NCBI GenBank assembly: GCA_913047695.1 | Contig: CAJWUI010000001.1 | Location: 1-64,000, forward strand | Reading direction: 5' to 3' | Length of the DNA: 64,000 bases | From: an uncultured Bacteroidota bacterium | Lineage (GTDB): Bacteria > Bacteroidota > Bacteroidia > Flavobacteriales > Flavobacteriaceae | Part shown: in pieces, positions 6,001-61,699 of the stretch | Layout of the letters: each line of letters begins with the position of its first letter | Numbering within the stretch: the stretch's first letter is position 1 | The notes under the pieces: model-generated | Told to the model about the DNA's origin: nothing | Seen by the model: only the letters and a program-made list of their open reading frames with translations | Databases searched by the model: none | Translations under genes and position numbers: made by a program

Positions 6001-9000
6001 CAAGAGCTGCAAATGTATCTGTGAATGCGAATTCTGTTCAAATTTTTGGAACAGCACCAACAGTAGGAGTAGAAACAACTTACACATATAGTATAAGTAC
6101 AGTAAATCCAAACTCTTGTACGCCGAGTGTCACACTTGGAGGTTCGATTACTGTGTTCCCACCTGTACAATATAATAATTGGGCAGGTAACCACACTGTC
6201 AATGACCCACTTTGTAGCGATGATGGAGGCTCAATTGTTGTTAATGCTGCAGCCGTTTCAGGTGGCTTTGTCGCGGTAAAACAACAATCAAGAGTAGAAA
6301 TAGACAATCAGTTTGGAGTCGGAAATATTATTACTATAAATGTTGGCCCCCAGTCATTCGATTATACCGTCCAGGGAGTTGATAATGCAACTGGAAATCT
6401 GTCCAACGATCCAGCAATATATGATAGGGCCCAAAGTAAATCTGAAATTATAACCGAAATTGTAGGCCTTATTAATGATGCTAGTTCTGGATCAACACTT
6501 GTAACTGCTGTAGGAAACTCTCCGTCAGTTGGAATAGCAACACTAATTGCAAAAACATCTGGAATTGGATTCACAGTTACATCAAGCAAACAACCTGCGG
6601 CATCACCTGGTACTATAACAATAACAACACCAGTCGCAAACCAGTCGTTAACCTATGGTTACTATTGGAGGCAAACTGATGCGATTGGAACTCCTGTTTC
6701 AACACTTGACACGTCGGATCCAACAACATATGTTGATACTGGATTAACATTAAATTTGACTGGTGTTACGGGCTCAGAATACTACATGTTAACCACTGTA
6801 TCAAACAATTGTCAAGCAGACTCTCCCTTTGTCACTATTACTGCACCCGATCCATTAGCACTTTCAATTACAACTATTTGTGACACTGAAATTACTGCTA
6901 ACGGGAGTGGGGGTACTGGACAATTGACTTATATCATATATAACTCTGCTGGTACTGAGATTGGTAGATCACCTGCAACTTTTGGTTCTCACACTTTTAG
7001 TGATGGAGACGCTAACAATCTGCCTGGGGGTGGTTCAATTAGCATAGACCCTGGATTCCGATATAATATAGGAATAAATGATGCAAACGGTTGTTCACTA
7101 AATGGGAATGATTCCACTGTTCAAGTAAACACACCTATAGCATTAGATATTGACGAAACAACAATTCAAGTTACAAACCCTGGCTGTAATGCAAATGACG
7201 GTAGTATTCTACTTGATAATGGAGGATTTACAATTACTGGAGGTTCAGCAGGGAATATTGGGGATTACTCAAATCTTACATTTTTATGGACAAGAAGCAG
7301 TGGAGGAACATTTAATACTCCTAACATTTCAGGTCTTTCGCCTGCAGATTACACTCTCACTGTTACAGATAATTTGTGTAATACTTTATTTATCACTTCA
7401 AATCCAATTACGCTTGAAGATTCAACTGACTTTACGGTTACAAGTGCAGTAGACAATTCAACCATTTCAAACTGTTCAGACGGACATCTACAAGTTTCAG
7501 TTGCAGGAGGTTCAGGAAATTTCAGTTATAGATGGACAGATCAAAATGGAGTAGTAAGAGGAACTACAAACAGAATCGAAAATTTAGAAGCAGGAATATA
7601 TACCCTTGTAGTTAGGGACACAACAACAGGCTGTGAACAAACAAATCCAACAGGAGCACCAGACCCAAACGGAGTTAGACTACCATATATTATAACTGGT
7701 TCGTCAGGACCTCTCCAAATGATTAATCCCTTAGCAATAAACCAAGCAAATTTTGAAACTACTGATATTATTTGTAGCGGGGATAGTACAGGTAAATTTG
7801 AAGTTGAATTTACAGGTGGTAATCCTCCATATCAATATTCATTGAATGGTGGGGCCTATCAAGGACCAGGGGTAGGGTTCTCAACTAAAACTGTAACTGT
7901 AACAACGGGAGGCGCAAGTGCTACTATAGTTTCTTATACTACACAACTTTTAACCGTAGATACATTAGAAGGAGGAACTTATTCAGTAAAAATAAAAGAT
8001 AGTGGACTGTGCACGGACAATGCAGGAAATACAATTGAATTAAATCTGGGAATAGCAACAATTAATGAGCCCGACCCACTTTTAATTGGAATAAATCCAG
8101 GTCAATCAGATCCAATTGACTGTTCAAGCGGTATTAAGGGGTCTTTATCACTTGAAATTGGTGGTGGTACTCATAGTTCTGATAATCCTTATAGTATACT
8201 GTGGGAATTATATGGTCCTAATGGAGAAGTACTTTATAAAAGAACTACTTCCGGACATAACCTTGATACAAGCGGATATACAATTACAGATCTAGATTAT
8301 GCTGGTGACTACACAGTTACAGTAACAGATGCAAATGGTTGTACAACTAGTCAAATCGTAACTCTTGAAGATGGTTCAGATGAAGATCCATTTACTGTTG
8401 GTGAGACACCAACAGTTACTCAACCTGGTTGTAATTCTGAGGAAACCGGGTCTATAGAACTTGAAATGAGCGGGGGTGTTCAACCATACGATATCAAATG
8501 GTACAAACTATCTGTTGCTCAACAGAGTGCAACAGTTTCGCCACCTACAGCTTCTCCAACTACAATAGAATTTGCAGATGGGGGTTACGTAAGTATGAAC
8601 AAGGACGGATTTTATCTGATTGATAACCTTGAAGCTGGAAAATATAGGGCGATTATAACTGATGCTTCTGGTTGTCAGATTTTCTCAAGATCTGGTATTA
8701 TAAAATCTAACACATTTAATATGATAAGTCAGAGAATTTACAATAGAGAAGTCATAGATTGTGATTCAGGAGCTGTAGAAGCTGACTTTTCATTCCAATT
8801 ATCAGGTACCTCACTTGCCTACAATATATATCTTAACGGAGAGGCAATATATGGGGGGAATTCAGGACAAATAAGTGGAACAACTGTTGTGAGCAGTCCA
8901 ACGTTTGCAAATAGTATTATTAAACAAGGAAGTACATTTGTAATAAGAGGACTAAGTGAAGGAAGATATGTTGTTGAAGCACAGGACGCTTCTAATCCTG

Positions 9001-48527: not shown

Positions 48528-49262
48528 TTGAAAACGCAATATCACATAAAAATATTTTTTTTCTTTTTCCTTTGTTTAAAATTGAAAGCGCAAAAGGAAT
48601 CAGAATCAAAAGATAAAGAAATAAGCATTCAAGAACCAAAAATAGTAGTACCGGGAAGATTCTTATCTCCACCTAGTGATGCAACTGTACTATTTGATGG
48701 TAAAGATTTTACAAAATGGCAACATTCAAAGACAAGAAAGCCAGTTAAATGGAAATTAAATAGTGACAAATCCATGACTATTAAACCTGGAACAGGATCT
48801 ATTGAAACAAAGATGGAGCATGGATCTATTCAACTTCATATCGAATGGAAATCTCCAATAGAGAATGAAGGTGAGGGGCAAACAAGAGGCAACAGTGGCA
48901 TTATTTTTCAGGCAAGGTATGAAGTGCAAGTATTAAATAGTTATCAAAATAGAACATACCCGGACGGGCAAGCAGGTTCAATTTATGGTCAACATGTTCC
49001 TTTAGTTAATGCGATGCGCCCTACTGGAGAATGGCAAGTTTATGATATTATTTTTAATGCTCCCAAATATGATGATAAAGGAGTAATAGCAAAACCTGGA
49101 AGTTTTATTGTCTTACATAATGGAGTAATTATTCAGAATGCTGTTGAAATAAATGGTCCTACACTTGGTATAGATAAGGGTACAAGAAGGGTATTAACCC
49201 TACAAGATCACGATAAAAATGGTTCGGTAAGTTACAGAAATATTTGGATGCGAAGATTATAA
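48528..49262 (+). CDS. Secreted DUF1080 (3-keto-disaccharide hydrolase family) protein
   Basis: The only start that leaves a signal peptide (KTQYHIKIFFFFFLCLKLKAQ) is the TTG at 48528, giving 244 residues; the start codon is therefore unusual. The mature protein is a single lectin-like beta-sandwich with LFDGKDFTKWQHSK, WKLNSDKSMTIKPGTGSIET and RGNSGIIFQARYEVQVLNSY, the DUF1080 hallmarks. Characterised relatives act on 3-keto-glycosides produced by Gfo/Idh/MocA oxidoreductases, one of which is encoded convergently 42 bases away. Periplasmic or surface location is expected. Confidence 0.85.
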   Translation: MKTQYHIKIFFFFFLCLKLKAQKESESKDKEISIQEPKIVVPGRFLSPPSDATVLFDGKDFTKWQHSKTRKPVKWKLNSDKSMTIKPGTGSIETKMEHGSIQLHIEWKSPIENEGEGQTRGNSGIIFQARYEVQVLNSYQNRTYPDGQAGSIYGQHVPLVNAMRPTGEWQVYDIIFNAPKYDDKGVIAKPGSFIVLHNGVIIQNAVEINGPTLGIDKGTRRVLTLQDHDKNGSVSYRNIWMRRL

Positions 49263-49263
49263 A

Positions 49264-49288
49264 AAATCCTGCTTAAAAAGCAGGATTT
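49264..49288. terminator. Bidirectional terminator between the DUF1080 and Gfo/Idh genes
   Basis: A perfect 11-bp stem AAATCCTGCTT / AAGCAGGATTT with an AAA loop begins 2 bases after the DUF1080 stop and 17 bases past the end of the convergent oxidoreductase gene. It is symmetric enough to serve both. Confidence 0.75.
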
Positions 49289-49304
49289 AATTTAGTCTAA
49301 AATT

Positions 49305-50753
49305 TTACACTTCAAACCCTTGTCTGTAATCTCTTGTAACGAACTGATTAGCAGCTTCCAAATTCGTAATTTTCATGTTGTCACCGTCCCACAAAAGCTT
49401 CTTTCTGGCGAAAAATTCTTTTGTTTTCTTATCTCTTAACATATAACTTCTGATAGCAAGATTACCCATAAGAACCGTTTCTGTCATTGGTCCAGCATAA
49501 TCGAAAGATGATGTTAATGATAGATGTTCTTTACTGTTGAACCCTGCTTTACAAGCATCTACCCATTTTCTTTGATGACCATACTCAGGCTCAATCATTT
49601 TTTCTACTTCAGGTCCAAAATCAGTTGAACCGTCATTGAGATATAATTTTGGCATTAACGGTTCACTATCATTAATATTTGTTGAAATAACTCCTTTTTC
49701 TCCAATAATCAAGACTCCATTAGCACTGTTTTTTCCACCAATATCACTGTTTGCTGGTATTACACTTGGATGCGATGGCCTTATTCCTCCATCACTCCAT
49801 GTCATTTTTATGGGTGACTTTGATTTTGAAGTAGCGTCAAAATTTATAGTTATAAATGATGAAGGAGGACAGCTTTCAGGATTGAAATCTGGAGACCACA
49901 TTTGAGAAAAAACACTACCAACACTACATTCAGCAGCTTTAGGATATTTTAGACCGAGTGTTCTAAAGGGAATATCAATTAGGTGGCACCCTACATCACC
50001 CAAAGCACCTGTACCGTAATCCCACCATCCTCTCCAATTAAATGGATGCATGTTTGGAGTATAGGGTTTTGATTTTGCAGGACCAAGCCATAAATCCCAA
50101 TTTAGCGCATTTGGTTTTTTTGAAATATTAGGTTTTGGCATAGAAATTCCAGATGGCCAAACTGGTCTATTTGTCCAAATTTTAACTTCTGATATAGCAC
50201 CTAATTTATCTTTATCAATCCAGTCCTGAACCATATTAAGAAGTGGGTTAGACCCCCCTTGGTTCCCCATTTGAGTCACTACTTTTTGTTCTCTCGCCAT
50301 TTCGGTTAAAATTCTAGCTTCCCTAATATTGTGAGTCATGGGTTTTTGAACATAGACGTGCTTACCTCTTAACATAGCATATGTTGCCGCAGGTGCATGG
50401 ACGTGGTCAGGGGTTGATATTGTGACTGCGTCTATATTTTTTTGTTTGTCAAGCATTTTCCTGTAGTCATCATAAAGTTTAGCTTTTGGAAACTTTTTCA
50501 CAGTATTTGAAGCACTGCCAGAAAAGTCAACATCACATAGAGCAACAACTCTTTCTCTCCCTCTCACTGATGCGTTACTGATATCACTCGCACCTTTTCC
50601 TCCAGATCCTATGGCTGCAATATTTAATTGATCGCTTGGGGATATGTAGCCATTGCCTCCAAGTACATTTCTTGGGACAATCATAATTGAAGAAGCAGCT
50701 ATACCATTTTTGATAAAACTGCGTCTCGAAGATTTTTGTTTCTTTGGTTTCAT
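49305..50753 (-). CDS. Tat-exported Gfo/Idh/MocA family oxidoreductase (first copy)
   Basis: The 482-residue protein has a twin-arginine signal (SSRRSFIKNGIAASSIM), then an NAD(P)-binding Rossmann domain with an intact GSGGKG loop, VALCDVD, ISTPDHVHA, and the Gfo catalytic-region lysine in VYVQKPMTH. The C-terminal domain has ALNWDLWLGPA, GTGALGDVGCHLID and DYAGPMTE. Exported family members oxidise a sugar hydroxyl, often at C3, with tightly bound NAD. Clearly paralogous to the copy at 54481. It converges with the DUF1080 gene, its likely pathway partner. Confidence 0.9.
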   Translation of the reverse strand: MKPKKQKSSRRSFIKNGIAASSIMIVPRNVLGGNGYISPSDQLNIAAIGSGGKGASDISNASVRGRERVVALCDVDFSGSASNTVKKFPKAKLYDDYRKMLDKQKNIDAVTISTPDHVHAPAATYAMLRGKHVYVQKPMTHNIREARILTEMAREQKVVTQMGNQGGSNPLLNMVQDWIDKDKLGAISEVKIWTNRPVWPSGISMPKPNISKKPNALNWDLWLGPAKSKPYTPNMHPFNWRGWWDYGTGALGDVGCHLIDIPFRTLGLKYPKAAECSVGSVFSQMWSPDFNPESCPPSSFITINFDATSKSKSPIKMTWSDGGIRPSHPSVIPANSDIGGKNSANGVLIIGEKGVISTNINDSEPLMPKLYLNDGSTDFGPEVEKMIEPEYGHQRKWVDACKAGFNSKEHLSLTSSFDYAGPMTETVLMGNLAIRSYMLRDKKTKEFFARKKLLWDGDNMKITNLEAANQFVTRDYRQGFEV

Positions 50754-50872
50754 TTAGTTTATACTTTGTTAATCAATTCATTCATAAAGATATATATTTT
50801 TTAAAAAAAATGAAAAAGCTTTGAAGCCTATTAATATTGACTAAATCATTCGTTTAATTTAGGTTTCTACTT

Positions 50873-50880
50873 TATCTTTG
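50873..50880 (+). promoter_or_regulatory. -7 promoter element upstream of the hypothetical/esterase pair
   Basis: TATCTTTG fits TAnnTTTG and lies 36 bases before the start of the small secreted protein gene. The -33 element is poor (TTTA at 50853-50856, 16-base spacing). Confidence 0.45.
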
Positions 50881-50916
50881 AATTGAGAGAGAATTACAAA
50901 TTTTTAAAAAAAATGC

Positions 50917-51333
50917 ATGAAAACTCACTTATTTATCGCTTTTTATTCTTTTTGTTTATTAGTATTTTCTCAGAGAGGAAATACAGGTGACAAAACATTT
51001 AGTTTCAGATTCCCTGAGGATAAATTCAATGAAATATCTAATGCATCATTAGAAATAATTAATGAAGTTGACCACGACATAATTGTTGTAATAAGAGATC
51101 AAAGAAAAAAATATATTCGTCATGTATATATCAGAAATAGGGAAAAATATAAATTCGAGCAATTACCTATTACGCGGATATACGTTCAATTTAAGTCAAA
51201 AGAATTTTATTTTGAAGATTATGAGAGAACAACAATTAATTTTGGTGATCAGCATGTTTTTAATTTTTACTTTGATCCAAGAGAAAAAGAAAACTATTTT
51301 TTAATTACTGAGGAAGAATTTTTTAAACCTTAA
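50917..51333 (+). CDS. Small secreted protein of unknown function
   Basis: A 138-residue protein with a signal peptide (MKTHLFIAFYSFCLLVFSQ). I do not recognise the mature part, which is predicted to be rich in beta strands (SLEIINEVDHDIIVVIRDQ, RIYVQFKSKEFYFEDYERT, QHVFNFYFDPREKEN) with many charged and aromatic residues, suggesting a small beta-sandwich. An alternative ATG four bases upstream is in another frame and gives no signal peptide. It is 27 bases upstream of the sialate O-acetylesterase-type gene and is probably co-transcribed with it. Confidence 0.7.
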   Translation: MKTHLFIAFYSFCLLVFSQRGNTGDKTFSFRFPEDKFNEISNASLEIINEVDHDIIVVIRDQRKKYIRHVYIRNREKYKFEQLPITRIYVQFKSKEFYFEDYERTTINFGDQHVFNFYFDPREKENYFLITEEEFFKP

Positions 51334-51360
51334 TCATGAAAACAATTTAGTTTAAAAGCG

Positions 51361-53412
51361 ATGAAAATAAATTTATTTCACCGACTTTCATTTTTTCTGC
51401 TGATTTTATTTTTCTCATGTTATGATAATCAAAATGAATTAAAAATAGCACCAGTTTTTTCTGATCACATGGTACTACAACAACAATCAGATGTTGCTAT
51501 ATGGGGAAGTGGTTCTCCCGGTAATGATATCAAGGCAATTTGTAGTTGGGGTGAAGAGTCAAAAAGCAAAATTTCAGAGGACGGTAGTTGGAAGTTTTTT
51601 ATTAAAACACCAAAGTATGGAGGACCCTATGATGTAAAATTTATTTCAGGTGAAAAAGAAATCATTTTTGAGGATGTTATGATTGGAGAGGTTTGGCTTA
51701 CATCTGGACAATCAAATATGGAGTGGCCCATGAGTGCAAAAATATTAAATCAAAATTATGAAATTAATAATGCGAATTATCCAAAAATTAGAATGTTTTC
51801 TGTGCCTAGAAATCTGAATGGTAAAAATATTTACAATGCGAAATGGGAAATTGCAAATAGAGAAAATATTGAAGATTTCAGTGCAGTAGGCTATTTTTTT
51901 GCCCGTGAAATTCACGAAAAACTTGGTGTGCCAGTAGGAATTTTAAATAGTTCATGGGGAGGTACTCCAATTGAAGCCTGGACAAGCATTCAAAAATTAG
52001 AAAGTATAAAGGGAAGTTCAAGTGAGGCAAAAAGAATTATTAGTGAGGGAGGGCTAGATGAAATAAGACTCAAAGAAAAAAAATATAATAAATTAGCTAG
52101 AGAGGTAAATGAGAATTATTTCAGTGATAAAAGCTATGACATTCCAGAGAGTATTGAAGATTGGTCAAAGATGGACTTAGATGATTTTGACTTTTCAACT
52201 ATAGATTTTGATGATTCTAATTGGGACACCTTTGACACCAAAAACTCTGAAAAAAAAATCTTCACTTATGAGAATATTTTTAAAGATGGAAGTTTGGCAG
52301 AAGAAGGTGTGATGTGGATAAGAAAGGAATTTAACATCGATAAGCCAAATAAAGATTATATGTTTGTGGTTGATGGTGGTATAGATGATTACGATTATAC
52401 TTACATAAATGGAACATTAATTGGAAAGGGTTTTGCCTGCTGTAAGAGTAGGTCCTATAAGATACCCAAAAACTTACTAAAAAAAGGTAAAAATATTTTG
52501 GCAATACGAGTCATCGACATTGTCGGTGAAGGTGCTTTTAGAGGACCTGTGTATCTTAAATCTGAAAATGATAGTTTAAACTTTGATCCTGGTTTATGGC
52601 GTTTTAAACATACAGCTTTTTACTTTGATTCTTCAATTCAAAAGCATAACCTTCAAATCAAAAAACTTTTGAATCAAGATAGCCTTCTAAAAGCGAATAT
52701 CAATAAAGGTATTTCTACTCAAAACCCAAATACTTATAGTATTTTATATGACAAAATGATAAAACCATTAATACCCTATAAAATTAAGGGATTTTTGTGG
52801 TATCAAGGAGAAGAAAATGTCACAAATTATTATGATTATAAAGAACTTTTATCTGGAATGATTGATGACTGGCGAGATAAATGGGAGGAAAAATTACCCT
52901 TTTATTTTGTACAAATAGCCCCTTACGGATACTCTTCAAATCAATTATCTCAAGAGTTGAGAGAGGCGCAAAGAAAAACTTTAGATGTTGAAAAAACAGG
53001 TATGGCAGTTACTTTAGACATAGGAGAAAAAGATGATATACACCCAGCTAATAAGCAAGATGTTGGTTTAAGATTAGCAAAACTTGCCTTAGCAAATGAT
53101 TACAGTAAATTTAAGGTTGTAGCAAGCGGACCATTATATAAATCAAAAAATTTATATGACTCCTATATCGATCTTTATTTTGATTATGTTGGATCTGGAC
53201 TTATCTCCAAAGGCCTTTTAGACGGATTTGAAATTGCAGGATCAGATTCTTTTTATTATCCTGCAAAAGCTAAAATAGTAGGTGATAAGGTTAGGGTTTA
53301 TTCTAAAAAAGTAAAGAACCCTAAAACTGTAAGATATGGTTGGCAAAATTATTTTGATGCTACTTTATTTAATAAAGAGGGTTTGCCTGCTTCATCTTTT
53401 CAGACGAATTAA
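51361..53412 (+). CDS. Sialate O-acetylesterase-type (SASA) carbohydrate esterase lipoprotein
   Basis: The 683-residue protein begins with a lipoprotein signal (FLLILFFSC). An N-terminal beta domain (APVFSDHMVLQQQSDVAIWG) is followed by an SGNH-type esterase domain split by an inserted galactose-binding-like beta domain (about residues 230-400; MWIRKEFNIDKPNKDYMFVV, cited as WIRKEFNID). The catalytic serine is in TSGQSNMEWPMS, the third conserved block is GFLWYQGEENV and the Asp/His block is DDIHPANKQ. Relatives remove acetyl groups from sialic acid or plant/algal polysaccharides; here another acetylated glycan is possible. Followed by a terminator at 53459. Confidence 0.88.
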   Translation: MKINLFHRLSFFLLILFFSCYDNQNELKIAPVFSDHMVLQQQSDVAIWGSGSPGNDIKAICSWGEESKSKISEDGSWKFFIKTPKYGGPYDVKFISGEKEIIFEDVMIGEVWLTSGQSNMEWPMSAKILNQNYEINNANYPKIRMFSVPRNLNGKNIYNAKWEIANRENIEDFSAVGYFFAREIHEKLGVPVGILNSSWGGTPIEAWTSIQKLESIKGSSSEAKRIISEGGLDEIRLKEKKYNKLAREVNENYFSDKSYDIPESIEDWSKMDLDDFDFSTIDFDDSNWDTFDTKNSEKKIFTYENIFKDGSLAEEGVMWIRKEFNIDKPNKDYMFVVDGGIDDYDYTYINGTLIGKGFACCKSRSYKIPKNLLKKGKNILAIRVIDIVGEGAFRGPVYLKSENDSLNFDPGLWRFKHTAFYFDSSIQKHNLQIKKLLNQDSLLKANINKGISTQNPNTYSILYDKMIKPLIPYKIKGFLWYQGEENVTNYYDYKELLSGMIDDWRDKWEEKLPFYFVQIAPYGYSSNQLSQELREAQRKTLDVEKTGMAVTLDIGEKDDIHPANKQDVGLRLAKLALANDYSKFKVVASGPLYKSKNLYDSYIDLYFDYVGSGLISKGLLDGFEIAGSDSFYYPAKAKIVGDKVRVYSKKVKNPKTVRYGWQNYFDATLFNKEGLPASSFQTN

Positions 53413-53458
53413 AACTTTTTTTGGGATAAACTCTAAAAAATCAATTTCCATAAAATCG

Positions 53459-53484
53459 AAACTGTTTTTTTATGAACAGTTTTA
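53459..53484 (+). terminator. Terminator after the SASA-type esterase
   Basis: An 8-bp perfect stem AAACTGTT (53459-53466) / AACAGTTT (53475-53482) with an 8-base loop runs into TTTT. It lies 46 bases after the stop. Confidence 0.55.
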
Positions 53485-53508
53485 AGGAATCTAATTTTTA
53501 TTTTTTGA

Positions 53509-53613
53509 TTAAACTCGATACTCCATATGAGTTGATAAGATTTCTTGGTTTTTAAATCCTTTTGTGCACTCTGACACAACAATTAGAAAGAATAATAGAC
53601 ATTTTCTTATCAT
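53509..53613 (-). other. Possible 34-residue ORF with signal-like N-terminus
   Basis: ATG at 53613 to TAA at 53509 reads MIRKCLLFFLIVVSECTKGF and ends with HMEYRV. The basic start followed by a hydrophobic run looks like an export signal, but Glu at -1 does not fit a lipobox and the mature part is only about 18 residues. It may be a decayed lipoprotein gene or chance. Confidence 0.2.
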
Positions 53614-53634
53614 ATTTAGATAAAGTTTTTAGAT

Positions 53635-53820
53635 CTATTTTTTTAAAAAATTAAACATAACATAAACATAAAAGATTAACGTTATTAGTATGGCAATAAG
53701 TCCAAAAAATTTCACTAATTCTTTTTCAGTTGTTTTATTTATAAATTCTAGTGTGGGTTTAAACCCTTTGGCAAGAATAAACAATCCGAAAACGGATAAG
53801 AAATAAGAAAGTAATTCCAT
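53635..53820 (-). CDS. Small two-helix membrane protein
   Basis: A 61-residue ORF (MELLSYFLSVFGLFILAKGF...FLKK) with two hydrophobic helices (about 3-17 and 36-58) flanking a charged segment (NKTTEKELVKFF). I recognise no family. The regular amphipathic/hydrophobic pattern and ATG start argue for a real gene, but nothing else does. It lies between the esterase terminator and the DUF1643 gene. Confidence 0.4.
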   Translation of the reverse strand: MELLSYFLSVFGLFILAKGFKPTLEFINKTTEKELVKFFGLIAILITLIFYVYVMFNFLKK

Positions 53821-53853
53821 ACAATTATGAAAATAATATAATTATATTCCAAC

Positions 53854-53896
53854 TAAAATTAGTACATCTAATTTTATATAAAATGAAAAATTAGAT
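53854..53896 (+). promoter_or_regulatory. Two mutually exclusive hairpins abutting the DUF1643 start codon
   Basis: TAAAATTAG (53854-53862) pairs with CTAATTTTA (53868-53876; loop TACAT). The overlapping segment ATCTAATTTT (53866-53875) also pairs perfectly with AAAATTAGAT (53887-53896), which ends one base before the ATG at 53897. Only one of the two can form at a time, an arrangement expected of a translational switch. Confidence 0.4.
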
Positions 53897-54430
53897 ATGA
53901 TTTCAAAAAAAATTATTTGTTATCCATTAAAAGACAAAAGAAAAAGATTTTTGTTAGGGAGAAATGGTAACTCAGAGCTTCTGGCAGTAGGATTGAATCC
54001 AAGTACTGCAAACGAATCCTCTATGGATCCTACTTCCAAGAATATAGAATCTATTGCAAACCAAAATGATTTTGATGGTTGGTGGTTAGTAAATCTATAC
54101 CCTGGCAGATATCCTAAACCGAAAGATTTACCTAAAAAACCAAAAAAAAATTATTTGGAACAGAATCTCATGATAATTGATAAGATTATTCAAAGTGAAG
54201 AGTTTAGAATCAAAAATGTTCTTATATGTTGGGGAAATAATGTGAATAATCACAGCTATCTCAAAGATCAAATGAAAATTATTTTAAAAATGTTTGAAAG
54301 TTCAAAATTTTCTTTGTCCTGTATTGGAGTTACAAAACATGGTAATCCAATTCATCCTAGTCCACTTTCTATTAATAGATTTTTGGGTGGACTTAATCAG
54401 ATCAAATTAAAAGAGTTCAAACATTCATAA
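53897..54430 (+). CDS. DUF1643 domain-containing protein
   Basis: The 177-residue protein matches DUF1643 with LLAVGLNPSTANESSMDPTS, WWLVNLYPGRYPKPKDLP, VLICWGN and the end TKHGNPIHPSPLS. The family is small, cytoplasmic and of unknown biochemistry; members are often found in variable genomic regions. It has no signal peptide and no evident link to the carbohydrate genes on either side. Its start codon directly follows a pair of alternative hairpins. Confidence 0.82.
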   Translation: MISKKIICYPLKDKRKRFLLGRNGNSELLAVGLNPSTANESSMDPTSKNIESIANQNDFDGWWLVNLYPGRYPKPKDLPKKPKKNYLEQNLMIIDKIIQSEEFRIKNVLICWGNNVNNHSYLKDQMKIILKMFESSKFSLSCIGVTKHGNPIHPSPLSINRFLGGLNQIKLKEFKHS

Positions 54431-54480
54431 CTTTTTAATTTTTAATGTATCTTGATGTATCAGTAATTAAAAAAAAATAA

Positions 54481-55842
54481 ATGAGTGTTAAGAAAGATAG
54501 CCGTAGAAATTTTATAAAGAAAACATCTATTATACCTGGATTAATGATTTTACCCAGACATGTCTTAGGTGGAAAGGGTTATAAAGCACCAAGTGATAAG
54601 CTCAATATTGCCGGTGTAGGTGTTAGGAAATGGGGTATGGGATCTGGGAATTTACGTGCGTGTAAAGAAGAGAATATTGTTGCTTTATGCGATGTTGATT
54701 TCAAACAATCAGCACCTACATTTAAGGAATATCCGAAGGCGAAAGTATATAAAGATTTTAGAAAAATGTTTGAAAGACAAAAGGATATTGACGCAGTTAT
54801 TGTTGCCACACCTGATCATAATCATGCCGTAATTACAATGATGGCAATTAAATTAGGTAAGCACGTTTATTGCCAAAAGCCACTTACTCATACCGTTTTT
54901 GAGGCAAGGAAAATTACTGAAGCAGCAAGAAAATACAATGTGCAAACACAAATGGGTAATCAGGGCAGATCTTCTGATGAAATAAGAAGTCTAAAGGAAT
55001 GGATAAATGATGATGCGATTGGACCCGTAAGAGAAATTTATGCTTGGACAGACAGGCCAGTCGGAGGAAATGCATGGGATACATTTGCTGTTAAAGCTAT
55101 GTCTAAAGAAAAACCTCCAGTACCTGAAGGTCTTGATTGGGATCTTTGGCTTGGCCCAGCTCCTTATCGCGACTATCATCCAGATTACCATCCTCTGTCG
55201 TGGAGAGCATGGTTAGATTTTGGTACAGGTTCCATGGGAGATATGGGTTGCCATATTTTAGACCCTTCATTTTATGCACTTGATTTAGGATCTCCAACAG
55301 AAATACAGGCAACATCTACGCATTGGATTCCAGAAATATCATCACAAACATATCCCTCTGCTTCAATAGTAAGGATGAAGTTTCCTAAAAGGGATGAGCA
55401 TCCTGAAGTTAATCTTACTTGGTCTGATGGTCGAATTCTGCCTCCAATTCCAGACGAATTTAAACCAGGCGAAAAGTTTACTCTAAGTGGAGCTATGCTT
55501 ATTGGTGACAAAGGAAAGATAATACATGATTCTCACGGAGCTAGTGGCTTAAGAATATTACCAGAGCAGAAGATGAATGAATATGTAAAACCTGAAAAAA
55601 CAATTCCAAGGATAAAAACTTCTCACGAAGGAGATTGGATTCGTGCATGCAAAGATGGAAAAAAGGCTTCATCAAATTTTGACTATGGAGGACCTTTAAC
55701 TGAAATGGCTCTTCTTGGGATGATTGCTATTCGTCTAAAAGACCAAAGATTAATTTGGGATTCGAAAAATCTAAGATTTACTAATAATCAAATTGCAAAT
55801 GAATTAGTCCATAAGGAATATCGAAAAGGTTGGTCATTGTAA
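54481..55842 (+). CDS. Tat-exported Gfo/Idh/MocA family oxidoreductase (second copy)
   Basis: A 453-residue paralogue of the enzyme at 49305, with a Tat signal (DSRRNFIKKTSIIPGLMI), VALCDVD, ATPDHNHA, the lysine of VYCQKPLTH, LDWDLWLGPAP and GTGSMGDMGCHILD. Its dinucleotide-binding loop reads GVGVRKWGMGSG, two residues longer than GSGGKG in the other copy, so cofactor binding may differ. It would oxidise a sugar or glycoside in the periplasm. First gene of a seven-gene operon (next start 16 bases downstream) and therefore the probable entry step of the pathway. Confidence 0.9.
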   Translation: MSVKKDSRRNFIKKTSIIPGLMILPRHVLGGKGYKAPSDKLNIAGVGVRKWGMGSGNLRACKEENIVALCDVDFKQSAPTFKEYPKAKVYKDFRKMFERQKDIDAVIVATPDHNHAVITMMAIKLGKHVYCQKPLTHTVFEARKITEAARKYNVQTQMGNQGRSSDEIRSLKEWINDDAIGPVREIYAWTDRPVGGNAWDTFAVKAMSKEKPPVPEGLDWDLWLGPAPYRDYHPDYHPLSWRAWLDFGTGSMGDMGCHILDPSFYALDLGSPTEIQATSTHWIPEISSQTYPSASIVRMKFPKRDEHPEVNLTWSDGRILPPIPDEFKPGEKFTLSGAMLIGDKGKIIHDSHGASGLRILPEQKMNEYVKPEKTIPRIKTSHEGDWIRACKDGKKASSNFDYGGPLTEMALLGMIAIRLKDQRLIWDSKNLRFTNNQIANELVHKEYRKGWSL

Positions 55843-55858
55843 ATTTTAATTTTTAGAA

Positions 55859-56563
55859 ATGAAACCCCTAGTTCAAATTTCTCTAGATTTGACAAATATA
55901 GATGAGGCAATAGAAACCGCATCAATGGCCTTAAGGGCAGGTGTAGATTGGCTTGAAGCGGGTACACCTTTAATTTTAGCTGAAGGACTGCATGGTGTTA
56001 GAAATTTAAGAGATTCATTTCCGAAAGTACCTTTAGTTGCGGATTTAAAGACTATGGACGGAGGTTACCTTGAGGCAGAGATGATGGCAAAGGCTGGGGC
56101 TACTCACGTAGTTGTAATGGCTAGAGCTCATCCTGAAACTATCAAATGCGTTGTTCAAGCAGGAAAAGATTTTGGTATAAAAGTAATGGGAGATAATATG
56201 ATTAGTGATAATATGATTGACGGTGCAAAATTATTAGAAGATTTAGGATGTGATTATATTATCCATCACATAGGGTATGATGAAAGAAGAGGTATTAGTG
56301 TACAAGGAGGAAAAGTGCCAAGTCCGCTAGATCAGCTGCTAGAAGTTGTAAAAACAGTAGACGTCCCTGTTCAAGCTGTAGGCGGATTAACTCTTGAGCA
56401 AGCAATAAAGTGTCCTCAGTATGGAGCACCATTAGTTGTTTTAGGAGCTCCGCTTGTAATCGATGCAGATTCATTTAAAACTGCGGATGGAAATTTAGAA
56501 TCATCTTTGAAAAAAATATGTAATGCTATTCATTCTCAAAAAGTATTATACCATAAAAATTAG
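55859..56563 (+). CDS. HUMPS/OMPDC-family lyase (hexulose-6-phosphate synthase-like)
   Basis: The 234-residue TIM barrel belongs to the orotidine-5'-phosphate decarboxylase suprafamily: VADLKTMD gives the DxKxxD triad (Asp62, Lys64, Asp67), and GVDWLEAGTPLILAEG is the substrate-binding first part. The second half has YIIHHIGYDERRG where 3-hexulose-6-phosphate synthase has an HTG-type motif, and a phosphate-site-like AVGGLTLEQA...VVLGAPLV. Relatives perform aldol cleavage (HxlA) or decarboxylate 3-keto-L-gulonate-6-phosphate (UlaD). No hexuloisomerase or sugar kinase is adjacent, so the substrate is likely neither of these. The dehydrogenase gene follows with no gap. Confidence 0.85.
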   Translation: MKPLVQISLDLTNIDEAIETASMALRAGVDWLEAGTPLILAEGLHGVRNLRDSFPKVPLVADLKTMDGGYLEAEMMAKAGATHVVVMARAHPETIKCVVQAGKDFGIKVMGDNMISDNMIDGAKLLEDLGCDYIIHHIGYDERRGISVQGGKVPSPLDQLLEVVKTVDVPVQAVGGLTLEQAIKCPQYGAPLVVLGAPLVIDADSFKTADGNLESSLKKICNAIHSQKVLYHKN

Positions 56564-57601
56564 ATGTTGTTTCCAAAAAAAATAGCAGCAGTTGTAAATT
56601 ACTCAAGTATAAAGGGGTCAGTTGAATTAAGAGAAATCAAATTACCTGAAATAGGCGAACATGATGTTTTACTCCAAGTCGAAAATGTTGGTGTATGTGG
56701 TTCTGACCTTCATCAATGGACTTCAGAACATAGTTGGAAAGTAAATTACCCTGTTGTTTTGGGACATGAATTTGGAGGGTTGATTAGTAAAATAGGAGAT
56801 AAAGTGAAAAAATGGAAAGTTGGAGATCGAGTAGTCAGCGAAACTGCCGCTGTTATTGACAATGAAAGTCCTTTAACTAAAGCGGGTCTTTATAATCTTG
56901 ACCCTACAAGAAAAGGTTTTGGTTATGGTGTTGATGGTGCTATGACCAAATACGTTAGAACACCTGCAAGGTGTCTTCACCATATTCCTGACAATTTATC
57001 ATTTGAGGAAGCTTGTTTGACAGAGCCATGTTGTGTTGCATATAATGCTGTTGTAGTAAACTCAAAAATAAAACCAGGAGACAAAGTTCTAGTTATAGGA
57101 CCAGGAACAATTGGAATTCTTTGTGCCGTAATTGCAAAAATATGTGGGGCAGATGTTGCCGTCCTAGGTCTTGAAAGTGATAGGTTTAGACTTTCTAAAC
57201 TGAAAAATTACAATATTAACTCAATAGTAAAAAATGTTTCAAGTTGGACTAAAGAAAAAGATGGTCTTGGAGTTGATTTAGTAATTGATGCAGCTGGTGT
57301 TAGCCATACTCTTAAAATTGCTATGGATAATGTAAGACCAAACGGGCAGATAACTAAGGTTGGCTGGGGTCCGCAACCATTGGATTTTTCTTTAGACATG
57401 ATTGTTCAAAAAAATATTCGTTTGCAAGGGAGTTTTAGTCACAATTGGCCTATTTGGGAAAAAGTTATTCAATTGATGTCTGAAGGAACTTTAAATGTAA
57501 AACCAATTATTGGAGGGGTTTGGTCAATCGAAGAATGGGAAAAGGCATTTAGTGAAATGCATTCTGGAAAAATTATAAAAAGTATTTTAAAGCCTATTTG
57601 A
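56564..57601 (+). CDS. Zinc-type alcohol/polyol dehydrogenase (MDR superfamily)
   Basis: The 345-residue protein has the GroES-like domain with catalytic zinc ligands in GVCGSDLH (Cys45) and GHEFGG (His68, Glu69), then the Rossmann domain VLVIGPGTIGILCA. The four-cysteine structural-zinc lobe of classical members is absent: the segment after GDRVVSETA contains no cysteines. It resembles sorbitol, threonine and galactitol dehydrogenases; it would oxidise a secondary hydroxyl of a sugar acid or polyol with NAD. Its ATG follows the preceding TAG directly and its TGA is followed directly by the next ATG. Confidence 0.9.
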   Translation: MLFPKKIAAVVNYSSIKGSVELREIKLPEIGEHDVLLQVENVGVCGSDLHQWTSEHSWKVNYPVVLGHEFGGLISKIGDKVKKWKVGDRVVSETAAVIDNESPLTKAGLYNLDPTRKGFGYGVDGAMTKYVRTPARCLHHIPDNLSFEEACLTEPCCVAYNAVVVNSKIKPGDKVLVIGPGTIGILCAVIAKICGADVAVLGLESDRFRLSKLKNYNINSIVKNVSSWTKEKDGLGVDLVIDAAGVSHTLKIAMDNVRPNGQITKVGWGPQPLDFSLDMIVQKNIRLQGSFSHNWPIWEKVIQLMSEGTLNVKPIIGGVWSIEEWEKAFSEMHSGKIIKSILKPI

Positions 57602-58393
57602 ATGAGGTTAAAAAATAAAGTCATTATAATTACAGGAAGTACAATGGGAATTGGAAAGGCAATAGCAATAAAATTTGTTTCTGAGGGAGCCAAAGTGATA
57701 ATTCATGGTTTAGAGAAAGAATTAGCTGAGAATCTTAGAAAGATGCTGGGAATCGAAAATTGTATTTTTCATATTGAAGACCTTTCAAATAGTGGATGTT
57801 CTGATAGATTAGTGTCACTAGCAATAAAAAAATGGAACAAAATTGACGGGATTGTAAATAATGCTGCCATGGTAATTAATTCCAATATTGATAATACTGA
57901 TGAAAAACTTCTAAACCAAGTATTAAAAGTAAATACGTTTACTCCGTTTTTTCTAATTAAGTCTGCTTTGCCTTATTTAACTAAATCCAAGGGATCAGTA
58001 TTGAATATTGGATCTGTAAATGCATCGAGTGGAGAACCAAATTTATTAGCTTACAGTATTTCCAAGGGAGCTTTAATGACTATGACACGTAATTTAGGTG
58101 ATAGTCTTAATCGAAAAAATAATGTGAGGGTTAATCAAATTAATCCAGGATGGGTTTTAACAGAAAAGGAGGTTGAGCGAAAAAAAAATCATGGTCTAAA
58201 ACATGATTGGTACAAAAACCTGCCAAATATTTATGCTCCTTCAGGTAGAATTCTTTTACCTGAAGAAATTGCGTCATTAGCGACTTATTGGCTTTCAGAT
58301 GAGAGTGGTCCTGTCAGTGGACAGGTAATTGATCTTGAACAATATCCGATGATTGGAAGAAATATCTCTAAGGACCCACTAAATTTAACTTAG
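57602..58393 (+). CDS. Short-chain dehydrogenase/reductase
   Basis: The 263-residue classical SDR has the cofactor loop TGSTMGIG (11-18), NNAA, the catalytic Ser in NIGSVNASSG and YSISK (Tyr/Lys), and INPGWVLT. The C-terminus has the LPEEIASLATYWLSDESGPVSGQVIDLE region (shown as LPEEIASLATYWLSDE), as in gluconate 5-dehydrogenase and related enzymes. It probably interconverts a keto- and hydroxy-sugar or sugar acid. Abuts the zinc dehydrogenase gene, with a 26-base gap to the isomerase gene. Confidence 0.9.
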   Translation: MRLKNKVIIITGSTMGIGKAIAIKFVSEGAKVIIHGLEKELAENLRKMLGIENCIFHIEDLSNSGCSDRLVSLAIKKWNKIDGIVNNAAMVINSNIDNTDEKLLNQVLKVNTFTPFFLIKSALPYLTKSKGSVLNIGSVNASSGEPNLLAYSISKGALMTMTRNLGDSLNRKNNVRVNQINPGWVLTEKEVERKKNHGLKHDWYKNLPNIYAPSGRILLPEEIASLATYWLSDESGPVSGQVIDLEQYPMIGRNISKDPLNLT

Positions 58394-58419
58394 AAATGTT
58401 GTGAAGTTAAACTTTTAAT

Positions 58420-59304
58420 ATGCCAAAATTAGCTGTTTTTCCAAAAGCATATATGGAAGCCTTGTGTAAGGACGGGTCAATGAAAATTTCAGAATGGATT
58501 TCACTAGCCTCAAAGCTTGATATTCAGGGATTAGAATGGTATGCAGGCTTTTTAGAAATGAGGTATAAAACAAGATGGAAGGATTTCAAAAAAATGGTTG
58601 AAGATATTGGAAAAGAAATTCCAATGATGTGCTGTTCTCCAGATTTCACCCACCCTGATCAAAAATTTAGGGAGAAAGAAATCTTAAAGCAAAAACAATG
58701 GATAGATATGACGAATATTCTAGGAGGCAGCTACTGTAGGGTTTTATCTGGACAAAAGAGACCTGGATTATCATTATTGGAGGGACTAAAATATGCATCG
58801 GATTGTATTACTGATTGTTTATCATATGCTGAAGAAAGAGGAATTACACTTGTTCTAGAGAATCACTATAAAGATGATTTTTGGAAATATCCAGAATTTG
58901 CTCAAAAAAAAGATGTTTTTAAATCTTTAGTAGAAAGTATTAATCATCCAAGTTTTGGTGTAAACTTTGATCCAAGTAATGCTTTTTTAGCAGGAGAAGA
59001 ACCGCTTGATCTACTGTATTCAATATCTGATAGGGTTGTAACCATGCATGCAAGTGATAGATATCTAAAATCGGGTACAATAGATGATTTAAAAAAAATT
59101 GATAGTGGTAAAATTGGCTACGCAAATATACTTAGTCATGGTGAGGTTGGTAAAGGGATGAATGATTATGATCTTATTTTTAAAGAACTTAAAAGAGTAG
59201 GATTCGATAATTGGATAAGTATAGAGGATGGGGTAGATGGTTTTGATCAGCTTGAGCGTAGTGTAAAATTTGTTAACGAGAAAATTAGTGAATATTGGAC
59301 TTAG
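58420..59304 (+). CDS. Sugar phosphate isomerase/epimerase-type TIM barrel (AP endonuclease 2 superfamily)
   Basis: The 294-residue protein has the xylose-isomerase-like barrel signature: IQGLEWYAGFLEMRYKTRW, TLVLENHYKDDFW with the metal-ligand Glu, FGVNFDPSNAF with Asp, VVTMHASDRY with His, GEVGKGMNDYDLIFKEL and WISIEDGVDG with the last Glu. All metal-binding residues expected of the superfamily are visible. Members act as ketose epimerases, dehydratases or decarboxylases of keto-sugars; the reaction here is open. Cytoplasmic, fifth gene of the operon. Confidence 0.88.
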   Translation: MPKLAVFPKAYMEALCKDGSMKISEWISLASKLDIQGLEWYAGFLEMRYKTRWKDFKKMVEDIGKEIPMMCCSPDFTHPDQKFREKEILKQKQWIDMTNILGGSYCRVLSGQKRPGLSLLEGLKYASDCITDCLSYAEERGITLVLENHYKDDFWKYPEFAQKKDVFKSLVESINHPSFGVNFDPSNAFLAGEEPLDLLYSISDRVVTMHASDRYLKSGTIDDLKKIDSGKIGYANILSHGEVGKGMNDYDLIFKELKRVGFDNWISIEDGVDGFDQLERSVKFVNEKISEYWT

Positions 59305-59343
59305 AGTAATATAAAATCTTTATATATATAAATTTTTATAAGT

Positions 59344-60219
59344 ATGAGATATGAAGTGATTTCAAAATATCACTGTAGTCTTGGAGAAAGTCCTTACTGG
59401 CACCAAAGCAGTAAAAGTTTTTTTTGGGTTGATATAAATAAAGGGATTCTTTATGGCTACAAAATATCTTCTAAAAAAATAAGACGATATCAATTCAACC
59501 ACAAATTATCATTAGTGACAGAAGCTCACGATGGTAAACTTGTTTTAGCACTAGATTTAAGAATTGCAAGTTTTGATCTATTTTCTGAAAAAATTGAGTG
59601 GATTACAGAATTAAAAAATGAAAAATTAGTGGATAGATTTAATGATGGTAAATGTGATTTAAATGGGAATTTATGGATAGGAACTATTAACAATGAGTTA
59701 AAATCTAGGGCAGGATCACTTTATTGTATTTCAAGTGATCTCAAATTTAAAAAGAAATTAACTAACATTAGTGTATCAAATGGTATAGCATGGACAAGTA
59801 ATTATAGAAAAATGTACTTCATAGATAGTCCAACTCAGGAAATTAAAGCTTATGATTTTAATCAAAAAAAGAATCAAATTGAGTTTCAAAAAGTTGTGAT
59901 CAAAGTCCCTTTCGAATTAGGAACTCCTGATGGAATGTCAATAGATAAGAATGGAAATCTTTGGATTGCACATTACGGTGGGTATGGAATATACTGCTGG
60001 AGTCCAAAAACTGGTGAGATAATCGATAGAATTAAACTCCCAGCAAGAGATACAACATCATGTTGTTTTGGAGGTGAGAATCTTAATTATTTGTTGGTTA
60101 CTTCTGCAACACAAAGTTTGTCAAAAAAGAATTTAATTGAATCTCCCGATAATGGACATACTTTTCTAATAAAGCTTGACGTTGAGGGAACATTACCGAA
60201 TAAATTCGTTTATATTTAG
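59344..60219 (+). CDS. SMP-30/gluconolactonase family lactonase
   Basis: A 291-residue six-bladed propeller. The divalent-metal residues are seen in SLGESPYW (Glu15), RFNDGKCD (Asn), SNGIAWT (Asn) and GTPDGMSID (Asp), all in family order. Members hydrolyse aldonolactones produced by sugar dehydrogenases, which fits a pathway with three dehydrogenases. No signal peptide, so cytoplasmic. It lies 39 bases after the isomerase gene and 24 bases before the next. Confidence 0.9.
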   Translation: MRYEVISKYHCSLGESPYWHQSSKSFFWVDINKGILYGYKISSKKIRRYQFNHKLSLVTEAHDGKLVLALDLRIASFDLFSEKIEWITELKNEKLVDRFNDGKCDLNGNLWIGTINNELKSRAGSLYCISSDLKFKKKLTNISVSNGIAWTSNYRKMYFIDSPTQEIKAYDFNQKKNQIEFQKVVIKVPFELGTPDGMSIDKNGNLWIAHYGGYGIYCWSPKTGEIIDRIKLPARDTTSCCFGGENLNYLLVTSATQSLSKKNLIESPDNGHTFLIKLDVEGTLPNKFVYI

Positions 60220-60243
60220 TACAAAGCTTATTTGAAATCATTT

Positions 60244-61668
60244 ATGTCTATTAATTCCTTATGCACAAAAAAGATATCTGACACTTTTTTTATTTTATTT
60301 ATCTATTTGACATCATTATGTTACTCTCAGGAAAAATCTGCATTCAATTCTGATGAAATAAATAGTCTTATTTCATATGTACAAAACAAAGATAATTTTG
60401 AGTATACTCTTGTAGACAGTGTCTTATATGATGGTGCTACTTTGTATAGAATAAAAATGACCTCAGGTAAGTGGTTAAATAAAAATATAGTCAATGAAAC
60501 TGATTGGTGGCATTGGGTTGATATTGTAATTCCTGATACAATTACAACCCCAACTTCACTACTTTTTATAGGCTTGGGTACAAAATATGATAATCAAATA
60601 TTTTTGGATAGTTTAAGCATCAAGAAAGCTATAAAAACAAATTCAGTAGTTAGTTATGTGAGTAATATCCCATATCAACCTTTAGTTTTTAATACTTCTG
60701 ACAATATCAATCGCTATGAAGACAATTTGATTGCTTATGGGTGGAATCAATTTTTAAAAGGTGGAGCAAAAAAAGAACATAAAGAATGGTTGGCACGTTT
60801 TCCAATGACAAGAGCGGTTGTTAGAGCCATGGATGTAATTGAGGAATACACTTTAAAGTTTAAAAATCCGGTAAAAGAATTTTTTATATCAGGAGCTTCA
60901 AAAAGAGGCTGGACAACTTGGACTACTGCTGCTGTTGATAAAAGAGTCATTGGAATGGCACCAATAGTTATTGATATGCTTAAAATAGTACCCTCTTTTG
61001 AACATCATTATAGAGTTTATGGAGATTGGTCGCCTGCTGTTGAAGATTATGTTGAGTTTAATATTATGGACTGGATGTTTACAGATGAGTTCAACACACT
61101 TATTAATTACATCGAGCCTTACCAATTTAGACACCTATTCACAATGCCAAAATTGGTTATTAATGGGACAATTGATGAATTCTTTGTTACAGACTCATGG
61201 AAATTTTACTGGAATGGGATACCAGAAAAAAAATATCTTCAGTATGTTCCAAATGGCAATCATGAATTAGATGGAACTTATCAGACGCAAAATGTTTTTT
61301 CATTTTACAATTACATAATAAATAAAAAAGATTTACCACGAATTTTATGGAAAATTGAAAATGACATCTTTAATGTGGATGTTGAAAAAGGTATTCCTTA
61401 TGAAATAAATTTATGGAAGACAAATAATCCGAAGTCAAGAGACTTTAGGATTTGGGAAGTTGGGAAATCATGGGTTAAAACAAAAATAAGCCGAAATAAA
61501 AGTGGATCCTACAGCATAAAGGCACCTTTTGAAAAGGAGGGTTTTACCGCTTCTCTTGTTGAAATAGTTTTTTACCCTGAAACTGATAAACAATTGATCT
61601 TCACAACGGGAACACTTATTTTACCTGAGAAGTATTTGCATTCGCCATTTAAACCAAGTCTTGATTGA
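60244..61668 (+). CDS. PhoPQ-activated pathogenicity-related (PqaA-type) secreted alpha/beta hydrolase
   Basis: I chose the ATG at 60244 (MSINSLCTKK, 474 residues) over a TTG four codons upstream. A signal peptide (FFILFIYLTSLCYSQ) precedes the PhoPQ_related domain: WWHWVDIVIPD, RFPMTRAVVRAMDVI, the nucleophile elbow ISGASKRGWTTWTTAAVD, RVIGMAPIVIDMLK and the acid/His region INGTIDEFFVTDSWKFYW with PNGNHELDGT. The family is unassigned biochemically; the fold suggests an esterase or peptidase in the periplasm or outside. Last gene of the seven-gene sugar operon, followed by a bidirectional terminator. Confidence 0.87.
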   Translation: MSINSLCTKKISDTFFILFIYLTSLCYSQEKSAFNSDEINSLISYVQNKDNFEYTLVDSVLYDGATLYRIKMTSGKWLNKNIVNETDWWHWVDIVIPDTITTPTSLLFIGLGTKYDNQIFLDSLSIKKAIKTNSVVSYVSNIPYQPLVFNTSDNINRYEDNLIAYGWNQFLKGGAKKEHKEWLARFPMTRAVVRAMDVIEEYTLKFKNPVKEFFISGASKRGWTTWTTAAVDKRVIGMAPIVIDMLKIVPSFEHHYRVYGDWSPAVEDYVEFNIMDWMFTDEFNTLINYIEPYQFRHLFTMPKLVINGTIDEFFVTDSWKFYWNGIPEKKYLQYVPNGNHELDGTYQTQNVFSFYNYIINKKDLPRILWKIENDIFNVDVEKGIPYEINLWKTNNPKSRDFRIWEVGKSWVKTKISRNKSGSYSIKAPFEKEGFTASLVEIVFYPETDKQLIFTTGTLILPEKYLHSPFKPSLD

Positions 61669-61678
61669 TTAAGTAGTT

Positions 61679-61699
61679 ATTATAGTAGTTTACTATAAT
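61679..61699. terminator. Bidirectional terminator between the PqaA-type and GH3 genes
   Basis: A 9-bp perfect stem ATTATAGTA / TACTATAAT with a GTT loop lies between the two convergent genes. It overlaps the stop codon of the GH3 gene and is flanked by T-rich sequence on the plus side. Confidence 0.6.

Follow-up and report, generated by a model that had tools for sequence, protein, structure and literature searches.

Does an exported set of oxidoreductases in a flavobacterium cleave glycans by oxidation and elimination, and where would the resulting 3-keto sugars go? The question is raised by a 64,000-nucleotide stretch of DNA from an uncultured member of the Flavobacteriaceae (hereafter the window), whose host, judging by what its closest relatives are called, is probably a marine flavobacterium. 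At 48528-61668 the window encodes two Gfo/Idh/MocA dehydrogenases with twin-arginine translocation (Tat) motifs, which we call GfoA and GfoB, a secreted DUF1080 protein of the 3-keto-disaccharide hydrolase family, a carbohydrate esterase and, directly behind GfoB, a catabolic run that begins with a relative of 3-hexulose-6-phosphate synthase (HPS) and 3-keto-L-gulonate-6-phosphate decarboxylase (KGPDC), here termed HPSL. Glycan cleavage that proceeds through oxidation and elimination has been described recently and is known mostly from gut bacteria, and oxidative glycan cleavage is reportedly already in print (Nasseri 2024, Nature 631:199). From protein families and gene order we consider it somewhat probable that the esterase, C3 oxidation by a Gfo protein and cleavage by the DUF1080 protein would together form a periplasmic 3-keto-sugar module of known kind.

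A first-pass annotation of this DNA had named two twin-arginine Gfo/Idh/MocA proteins, a secreted DUF1080 protein and an esterase, with a glycoside hydrolase family 3 (GH3) glycosidase beyond them, and all are present as intact frames. It had also treated the 7.3-kb stretch holding the first four as one module. The gene list is correct, but the stretch is neither a single unit nor one operon. The DUF1080 gene and GfoA are convergent with 42 bp between them, and GfoA diverges from the 138-aa frame that precedes the esterase. This convergent and divergent arrangement and the larger same-strand run behind GfoB were absent from that annotation.

GfoA, GfoB and the DUF1080 protein

GfoA (49305..50753, minus strand) and GfoB (54481..55842, plus strand) each carry the features of an exported Gfo protein, namely a PF01408 domain (63.6 and 69.6 bits), a twin-arginine motif (SRRSFIK and SRRNFIK), the lysine of QKP and the Asp/His pair of GD-x-GCH (GDVGCH and GDMGCH), and the genome has a gene for TatC (219.6 bits). 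The lysine and the Asp/His pair are presumably the catalytic residues. For both proteins the nearest solved structures are the 8tdf/8tdh dehydrogenases, with E values from 3.5e-87 to 4.8e-103. GfoA matched 8tdf at E 6.5e-90 and the next protein at 8.9e-14, and GfoB matched it at E 4.8e-103 and the next protein at 6.9e-18. The best NCBIfam model for both is NF058561, the BT_2158_fam glycoside 3-dehydrogenase, but at 448.1 bits for GfoA and 509.7 for GfoB neither reaches its cut-off of 750 bits, and they are therefore relatives rather than certified members of that family.

The DUF1080 protein (48528..49262, plus strand, TTG start) has a hydrophobic, signal-like N-terminus and matched PF06439 at 114.7 bits against a gathering cut-off of 26.8. 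Its predicted structure (mean predicted local distance difference test score, pLDDT, 80.8; predicted template modelling score, pTM, 0.75) is closest to 4qhz, followed by further DUF1080 structures, among them 8tda, whose title names a Bacteroides thetaiotaomicron 3-keto-2-hydroxy-glucal hydratase, and 9fbe, whose title names a 3-keto-glycoside eliminase/hydratase. Foldseek matches ranked under the DUF1080 structures were set aside as jelly-roll-like folds of a general kind, and a search for literature naming structures 8tda, 8tde, 8tdf, 9fbe, 8rr2 or 8v31 found nothing relevant. Twelve columns are invariant in an 18-row alignment of DUF1080 orthologues and own-genome paralogues. The active-site comparison that the first-pass annotation had proposed came out mixed. 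Among the candidate active-site residues, N122, S123, G124, E132, Q134, Q226 and H228 are the same as in 8tda, and the Asp of the EVQ-L-D motif, present in both 4qhz and 8tda, is Asn137 in the window.

Gene neighborhoods and residue 137

Gfo and DUF1080 genes cluster beyond chance in the window's own genome (1.96 Mb, 89% complete), which holds 13 Gfo-type genes (14 PF01408 matches, one of which, L104, glutamyl-tRNA-reductase-like by eye, was set aside) and 8 DUF1080 genes (9 PF06439 matches). Of the 8 DUF1080 genes, 4 have a Gfo gene no more than 2 kb away, compared with a mean of 0.26 in 20,000 random placements (P = 5e-5; P = 2.5e-4 at 3 kb and 0.003 at 6 kb), with all P values approximate since the genome was placed as one line. 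Because the window's own genes had prompted this test, we repeated it without them, and 3 of 7 remained within 2 kb against 0.19 expected (P = 8e-4; 6 kb, P = 0.01).

Elsewhere in the same genome, a compact, single-strand run at locus L107 (G000:C3:105000-115000, 4796-9905) comprises a PF01261 TIM barrel, a transporter-like gene (by eye), a Gfo gene, a second PF01261 TIM barrel and a DUF1080 gene. It looks like a classical 3-keto-glycoside operon (Gfo, DUF1080, AP_endonuc_2 and transporter on one strand), an arrangement that the window does not match, and the window is thus one of several 3-keto-type loci in this genome. At L110 (G000:C5:181500-192000, 4921-9280) a DUF1080 gene is followed by a Gfo gene, a small Tat-like protein and a GMC-type oxidoreductase (by eye), a set that could be a LacABC-like membrane dehydrogenase.

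We then compared 120 related genomes, the own genome included. GfoB, called at E 1e-120, is present in 10 of these, and in 7 of the 10 (again counting the own genome) a PF06439 gene lies within 6 kb of it. Spacing varies considerably. GfoB and a DUF1080 gene are on the same strand and only 69 bp apart in G004 and 41 bp apart in G008, where a SASA esterase and another DUF1080 gene follow; in G001 and G027 the DUF1080 gene is on the far side of a GDSL esterase from GfoB; and in the window's genome (G000), G028 and G031 the nearest copy is 5.2-5.8 kb away. BLASTP with the window's DUF1080 protein, which distant members would escape, found none near GfoB in 10 kb of G011 and 15 kb of G015; the G011 contig extends only about 0.9 kb beyond GfoB, and the G017 contig has GfoB at its start. 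An esterase lies near GfoB in G001, G008, G027 and the window, so that genes of the same three kinds, esterase, Gfo and DUF1080, are found together in several layouts. In G001 and G027 GfoB has an exported 375-aa gene beside it that had been considered as a TIM barrel; this reading was rejected because Pfam assigns the gene to the GDSL/GxDLY esterases.

The window's esterase is of SASA type (51361..53412, plus strand; PF03629, 67.6 bits), with GQSNM at residue 116, DDIH at residue 558 and, by eye, a lipoprotein-like N-terminus. Upstream of it lies the gene for the 138-aa protein (50917..51333, plus strand), which has no Pfam match and adjoins GfoA also in L011, L012 and L192. A DUF1643 gene (53897..54430, plus strand; PF07799, 96.4 bits) ends 50 bp upstream of GfoB. 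The GH3 gene (61693..63858, minus strand; PF00933, PF01915 and PF14310) is convergent with the GfoB run, and its frame extends beyond the window to 804 aa in the genome (L113). Window positions 600-10616 form one open frame of 3338 aa.

The pairing of GfoA with the DUF1080 gene is more uniform. Both are present in 33 genomes and lie within 7 kb on the same contig in 26 of these, convergent in 26/26. Spacing is below 5 kb in 25 of the 33 and 6.9 kb in G013; in the other 7 genomes the two genes are on different contigs (6) or 117 kb apart (one). In 21 of 30 GfoA loci, GfoA has part of a DEAD-box-helicase-like gene at its side, and hisS- and rplI-like genes (by eye) accompany GfoA at L192. An operon of GfoA and the DUF1080 gene was rejected on the convergent order and on the helicase-like neighbor, and because of this neighbor the steady closeness of the pair looks like frozen gene order.

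Residue 137 could be read in 30 DUF1080 copies, which come from 28 of 30 orthologue loci; the other two, L135 and L140, departed from the motif and were not counted, and 14 of 46 DUF1080 orthologue matches lie outside these loci. Asn137 is found in six copies (G000, G031, G028 copy 1, G010 copy 1, G004 and G008), five of which are within 7 kb of GfoB (0.04, 0.07, 5.2, 5.2 and 6.7 kb). The contig of the sixth (G010) stops just beyond GfoA, and no GfoB was found in that genome at E 1e-120. Only 1 of the 24 Asp copies lies as close to GfoB (G028 copy 2, 5.8 kb), giving a Fisher P of 2.4e-4 that is uncorrected for kinship. The DUF1080 tree separates the Asn copies into two positions, which requires two changes, and 0 of 200 bootstrap trees joined them; the starred branches alone leave a single origin possible. 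Asn137 was thus apparently gained twice. With only two origins and a pattern sought after the alignment was seen, the pairing of Asn137 with GfoB is a lead and not proof. The DUF1080 proteins of a different type that neighbor GfoB in G001, G027 and G008 carry Asp in the same motif, and L116 and L117 (G028 and G010) each hold a tandem DUF1080 pair in which one copy has Asn137 and the other Asp. The switch between Asn and Asp in GfoB-linked copies suggests that residue 137 may tune the enzyme.

The HPSL cassette behind GfoB

GfoB is the first clear gene of a plus-strand catabolic run that ends at 61668, with gaps of 16, 0, 0, 26, 39 and 12 bp in order. HPSL (55859..56563; PF00215, 77.9 bits) is followed by a zinc-type dehydrogenase resembling polyol and threonine dehydrogenases (ZnADH, 56564..57601; PF08240 and PF00107; PRK05396, 189.6 of 380 bits; sorbitol dehydrogenase 1pl6, E 4.5e-40), a short-chain dehydrogenase (SDR, 57602..58393; PF13561, 147.8 bits; PRK06198, 197.4 of 240 bits), a xylose-isomerase-like TIM barrel of epimerase or isomerase type (TIM, 58420..59304; PF01261, 117.4 bits; conserved ENHYKDDFW, DPSN, MHASDR and SIEDG), an SMP-30/gluconolactonase-like protein (SGL, 59344..60219; PF08450, 224.7 bits) and, as the final gene, a PF10142 'PhoPQ_related' protein (60232..61668; 357.3 bits). 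This last protein, labelled 'PhoPQ-activated pathogenicity-related', may be a carbohydrate hydrolase and there is no sign of pathogenicity. Among the matches listed, none of HPSL, ZnADH, SDR, TIM and SGL reached a curated NCBIfam cut-off (for SDR, 25 of 228 families were listed, and for SGL none). Two FGGY-family genes are present in the genome outside the cassette.

The predicted HPSL structure (mean pLDDT 86.3, pTM 0.85) has the fold of the orotidine 5'-monophosphate (OMP) decarboxylase suprafamily, and the D-x-K-x-x-D motif of that suprafamily is present as D62, K64 and D67, which along with D112 are invariant in 19 rows. HPS structures rank first (9lj9, Z 27.4, root-mean-square deviation (rmsd) 1.8, 204 aligned; 3ajx, Z 27.2, rmsd 2.2, 207 aligned; 3f4w, Z 25.6), with KGPDC structures behind at Z of about 24. 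HPSL could be assigned to neither enzyme, scoring 133.6 bits with the HPS model TIGR03128 (cut-off 200) and 84.2 of 250 and 64 of 294 bits with the KGPDC models PRK13306 and PRK13305, and the Glu112, Arg139 and Thr169 of KGPDC are absent. At the positions of the E112D/R139V/T169A exchanges named in PDB titles, which we take to shift KGPDC towards HPS, alignment to 3ieb places Asp112, Tyr140 and Val174.

A scan of 84,980 species genomes returned at least 561 HPSL relatives, of which we examined the best 80 (at least 77% identity), some of their loci being cut by contig ends. Of 44 Bacteroidota loci, 42 have HPSL, ZnADH, SDR and TIM in succession on one strand, and in 33 of the 44 SGL comes next. 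In the 36 loci from Verrucomicrobiota and Planctomycetota, ZnADH follows HPSL in 18 and all three genes follow in 4. A recent transfer of HPSL between phyla is unsupported, as an 80-row tree (the window and 79 loci, L086 excluded) keeps Bacteroidota to one side and its labels need the minimum of changes; Planctomycetota lie inside Verrucomicrobiota with moderate support. In the 120 genomes compared above, which include the own genome, HPSL occurs in 10: the window's genome, 7 others of its genus, G055 (79% identity) and G038 (32%). In 5 of the 7 genomes with both genes GfoB and HPSL are 14-20 bp apart, and in G001 and G027 they are on separate contigs.

Neighboring genes in other loci gave no common substrate. 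Three Spirosoma loci (L065, L070 and L090) have a GfoA-like protein with a Tat motif downstream of the cassette, and two Planctomycetaceae loci (L069 and L080) have a distant Gfo gene (33% identity) upstream of HPSL. In Verrucomicrobiota a C-terminal AraC-type helix-turn-helix regulator (by eye; open reading frame cluster c10, 14 loci) is often beside HPSL on the opposite strand. Directly after the cassette of an Emticicia (L087, 13473-14642) is a XylR-like regulator with a periplasmic-binding domain and an AraC helix-turn-helix, a hint of pentose-related control. A convergent DUF1080-like gene with 34% identity to L106 lies right behind HPSL in a Prosthecobacter bin (L088, 3521-5172). No description of the cassette was recognized among the titles and opening lines of abstracts in an open-access library, a scope outside which most subscription journals fall, and the accessible portions of PMC11036162 and PMC5613140 do not mention it. 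The cassette appears to be a widespread but uncharacterized gene set that may complete the breakdown of the oxidized sugars through CO2 removal.

Pathway, alternatives and known systems

In the module that we favor, the esterase would remove acyl groups from oligosaccharides, GfoA and/or GfoB, exported through Tat with NAD bound, would oxidize a sugar residue at C3 as expected from their family, and the DUF1080 protein would break the glycosidic bond so activated, through elimination followed by re-hydration, as the titles of 8tda and 9fbe suggest, to yield a 3-keto sugar. Beyond this, SDR, SGL and ZnADH might form and oxidize a sugar acid, by lactone opening and oxidation of the acid at C3, HPSL might decarboxylate the 3-keto acid to a pentulose, and TIM would epimerize or isomerize the pentulose, which an FGGY kinase from another locus may then phosphorylate; the order of all these steps is a guess. 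This continuation, a cytoplasmic clearing cassette coupled to GfoB that works by oxidative decarboxylation of sugar acids, strikes us as rather unlikely in the form written. An equally speculative proposal, with the chances well against it, is that the cassette represents an undescribed route, widely shared among Bacteroidota and partly by Verrucomicrobiota and Planctomycetota, which would turn 3-keto sugars or sugar acids into pentuloses by C3 oxidation and decarboxylation without phosphorylating them first. If true, periplasmic oxidation by an exported C3 dehydrogenase would feed carbon straight into pentose metabolism.

The oxidation and elimination that the first-pass annotation had foreseen is supported in part, by the nearest structures of both dehydrogenases and of the DUF1080 protein, by NF058561 as the best model of the dehydrogenases, by the clustering of Gfo and DUF1080 genes, and by the adjacency of GfoB to DUF1080 in two relatives. 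The explanation favored here also draws on the Tat motifs and TatC, on the PF06439 genes and esterases near GfoB in other genomes, on the linkage of Asn137 to GfoB, on the tight run behind GfoB and on the two FGGY-family genes. Several points weigh against it and its continuation through the cassette. Neither dehydrogenase reaches the family cut-off, no single operon joins the genes, the convergent GfoA-DUF1080 pair is probably frozen gene order, and Asn137 may mean that DUF1080 function is altered or lost. As for the cassette, GfoB is upstream of it in just 2 of the 80 loci, which implies that the cassette does not need GfoB; a product transporter was not seen in the GfoB run; and the HPS-like Asp112 of HPSL suits an aldolase equally. 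What speaks for the annotation's further claim of ordinary hydrolysis next to the oxidative route is a single observation, the closeness of the convergent GH3 gene.

It is possible, if somewhat doubtful, that the window simply holds two unrelated neighbors: an old block of DUF1080, GfoA and esterase genes fixed in the genus, and a separate catabolic operon of GfoB and the HPSL cassette in which GfoB acts on a free sugar or polyol, oxidizing it perhaps at a different carbon, without the window's DUF1080 protein. The convergent DUF1080-GfoA order in 26 genomes compared with GfoB in 10 of 120, the helicase-like gene beside GfoA, and G015, where GfoB adjoins HPSL and no DUF1080 gene was recognized within 15 kb, all fit such a division; the gaps of 41-69 bp between GfoB and DUF1080 in G004 and G008, and an Asn137 pattern that tracks linkage to GfoB, do not. 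HPSL might also be an aldolase rather than a decarboxylase, joining or splitting a C1 unit so that a keto-hexose is handled via formaldehyde release or fixation. The first rank of HPS models and structures (TIGR03128 and 9lj9) points that way, as do Asp112 and a residue other than Arg at 140, which mirror the E112D/R139V/T169A mutants. We nevertheless regard it as less than probable, as no 6-phospho-3-hexuloisomerase or formaldehyde-handling gene is among the genes of the run and a lactonase with two dehydrogenases would better suit an acid route. GH109 enzymes are themselves exported Gfo/Idh/MocA proteins, and GfoA and GfoB could in principle be complete glycosidases of this type, with oxidation, elimination, hydration and reduction all taking place in a single active site and no need of DUF1080. 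GfoA does match the GH109 structures 6t2b (E 1.2e-5) and 2ixa (E 1.3e-4) weakly. However, 8tdf/8tdh are far closer (E at most 6.5e-90), no GH109 entry was found for GfoB among the 60 of 66 structure matches listed, and DUF1080 genes accompany Gfo genes, which together make this very improbable.

The favored periplasmic module can be set beside two known systems. In the available part of PMC11300592, BT2158 of Bacteroides thetaiotaomicron is a periplasmic glycoside 3-dehydrogenase whose mutant fails to grow on any of trehalose, leucrose and palatinose. BT2157/BT2158 have in common with the window a secreted PF06439 protein and an exported Gfo/Idh/MocA dehydrogenase that agrees in sequence type. 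The window differs in that its genes are not one operon, its Gfo proteins fall below the NF058561 cut-off, its DUF1080 protein has Asn137, and it holds an esterase and the HPSL cassette in addition. The accessible part of PMC9007349 treats DUF1080 as a 3-keto hydrolase in Bacteroides and proposes the same for Caulobacter, where, as may be the case here, periplasmic C3 oxidation precedes a DUF1080 protein. The Caulobacter dehydrogenase is LacABC and that of the window is of Gfo type, although a LacA-like set (by eye) is present at L110 in the same genome. The same portion of PMC9007349 states that the fate of 3-ketogalactose is unknown, and the cassette behind GfoB would offer a concrete, testable answer on the later fate of 3-keto sugars.

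HPSL resembles HPS and KGPDC in fold and in D62/K64/D67 and departs from them in lying below both curated cut-offs and in Tyr140 and Val174, which match neither. In the E. coli ula and yia pathways for ascorbate and gulonate, a lactonase, an HPS/KGPDC-like protein and an AP_endonuc_2 TIM barrel are encoded adjacently, and the same three stand side by side in the cassette. Unlike those pathways, the cassette has no phosphotransferase system or kinase, its lactonase is of another family, ZnADH and SDR are extra, and its TIM has no curated UlaE-type match among those listed. The oxidative-cleavage route would be of a known kind, and the Asn137 pattern and the joining of GfoB to the HPSL cassette would go beyond it.

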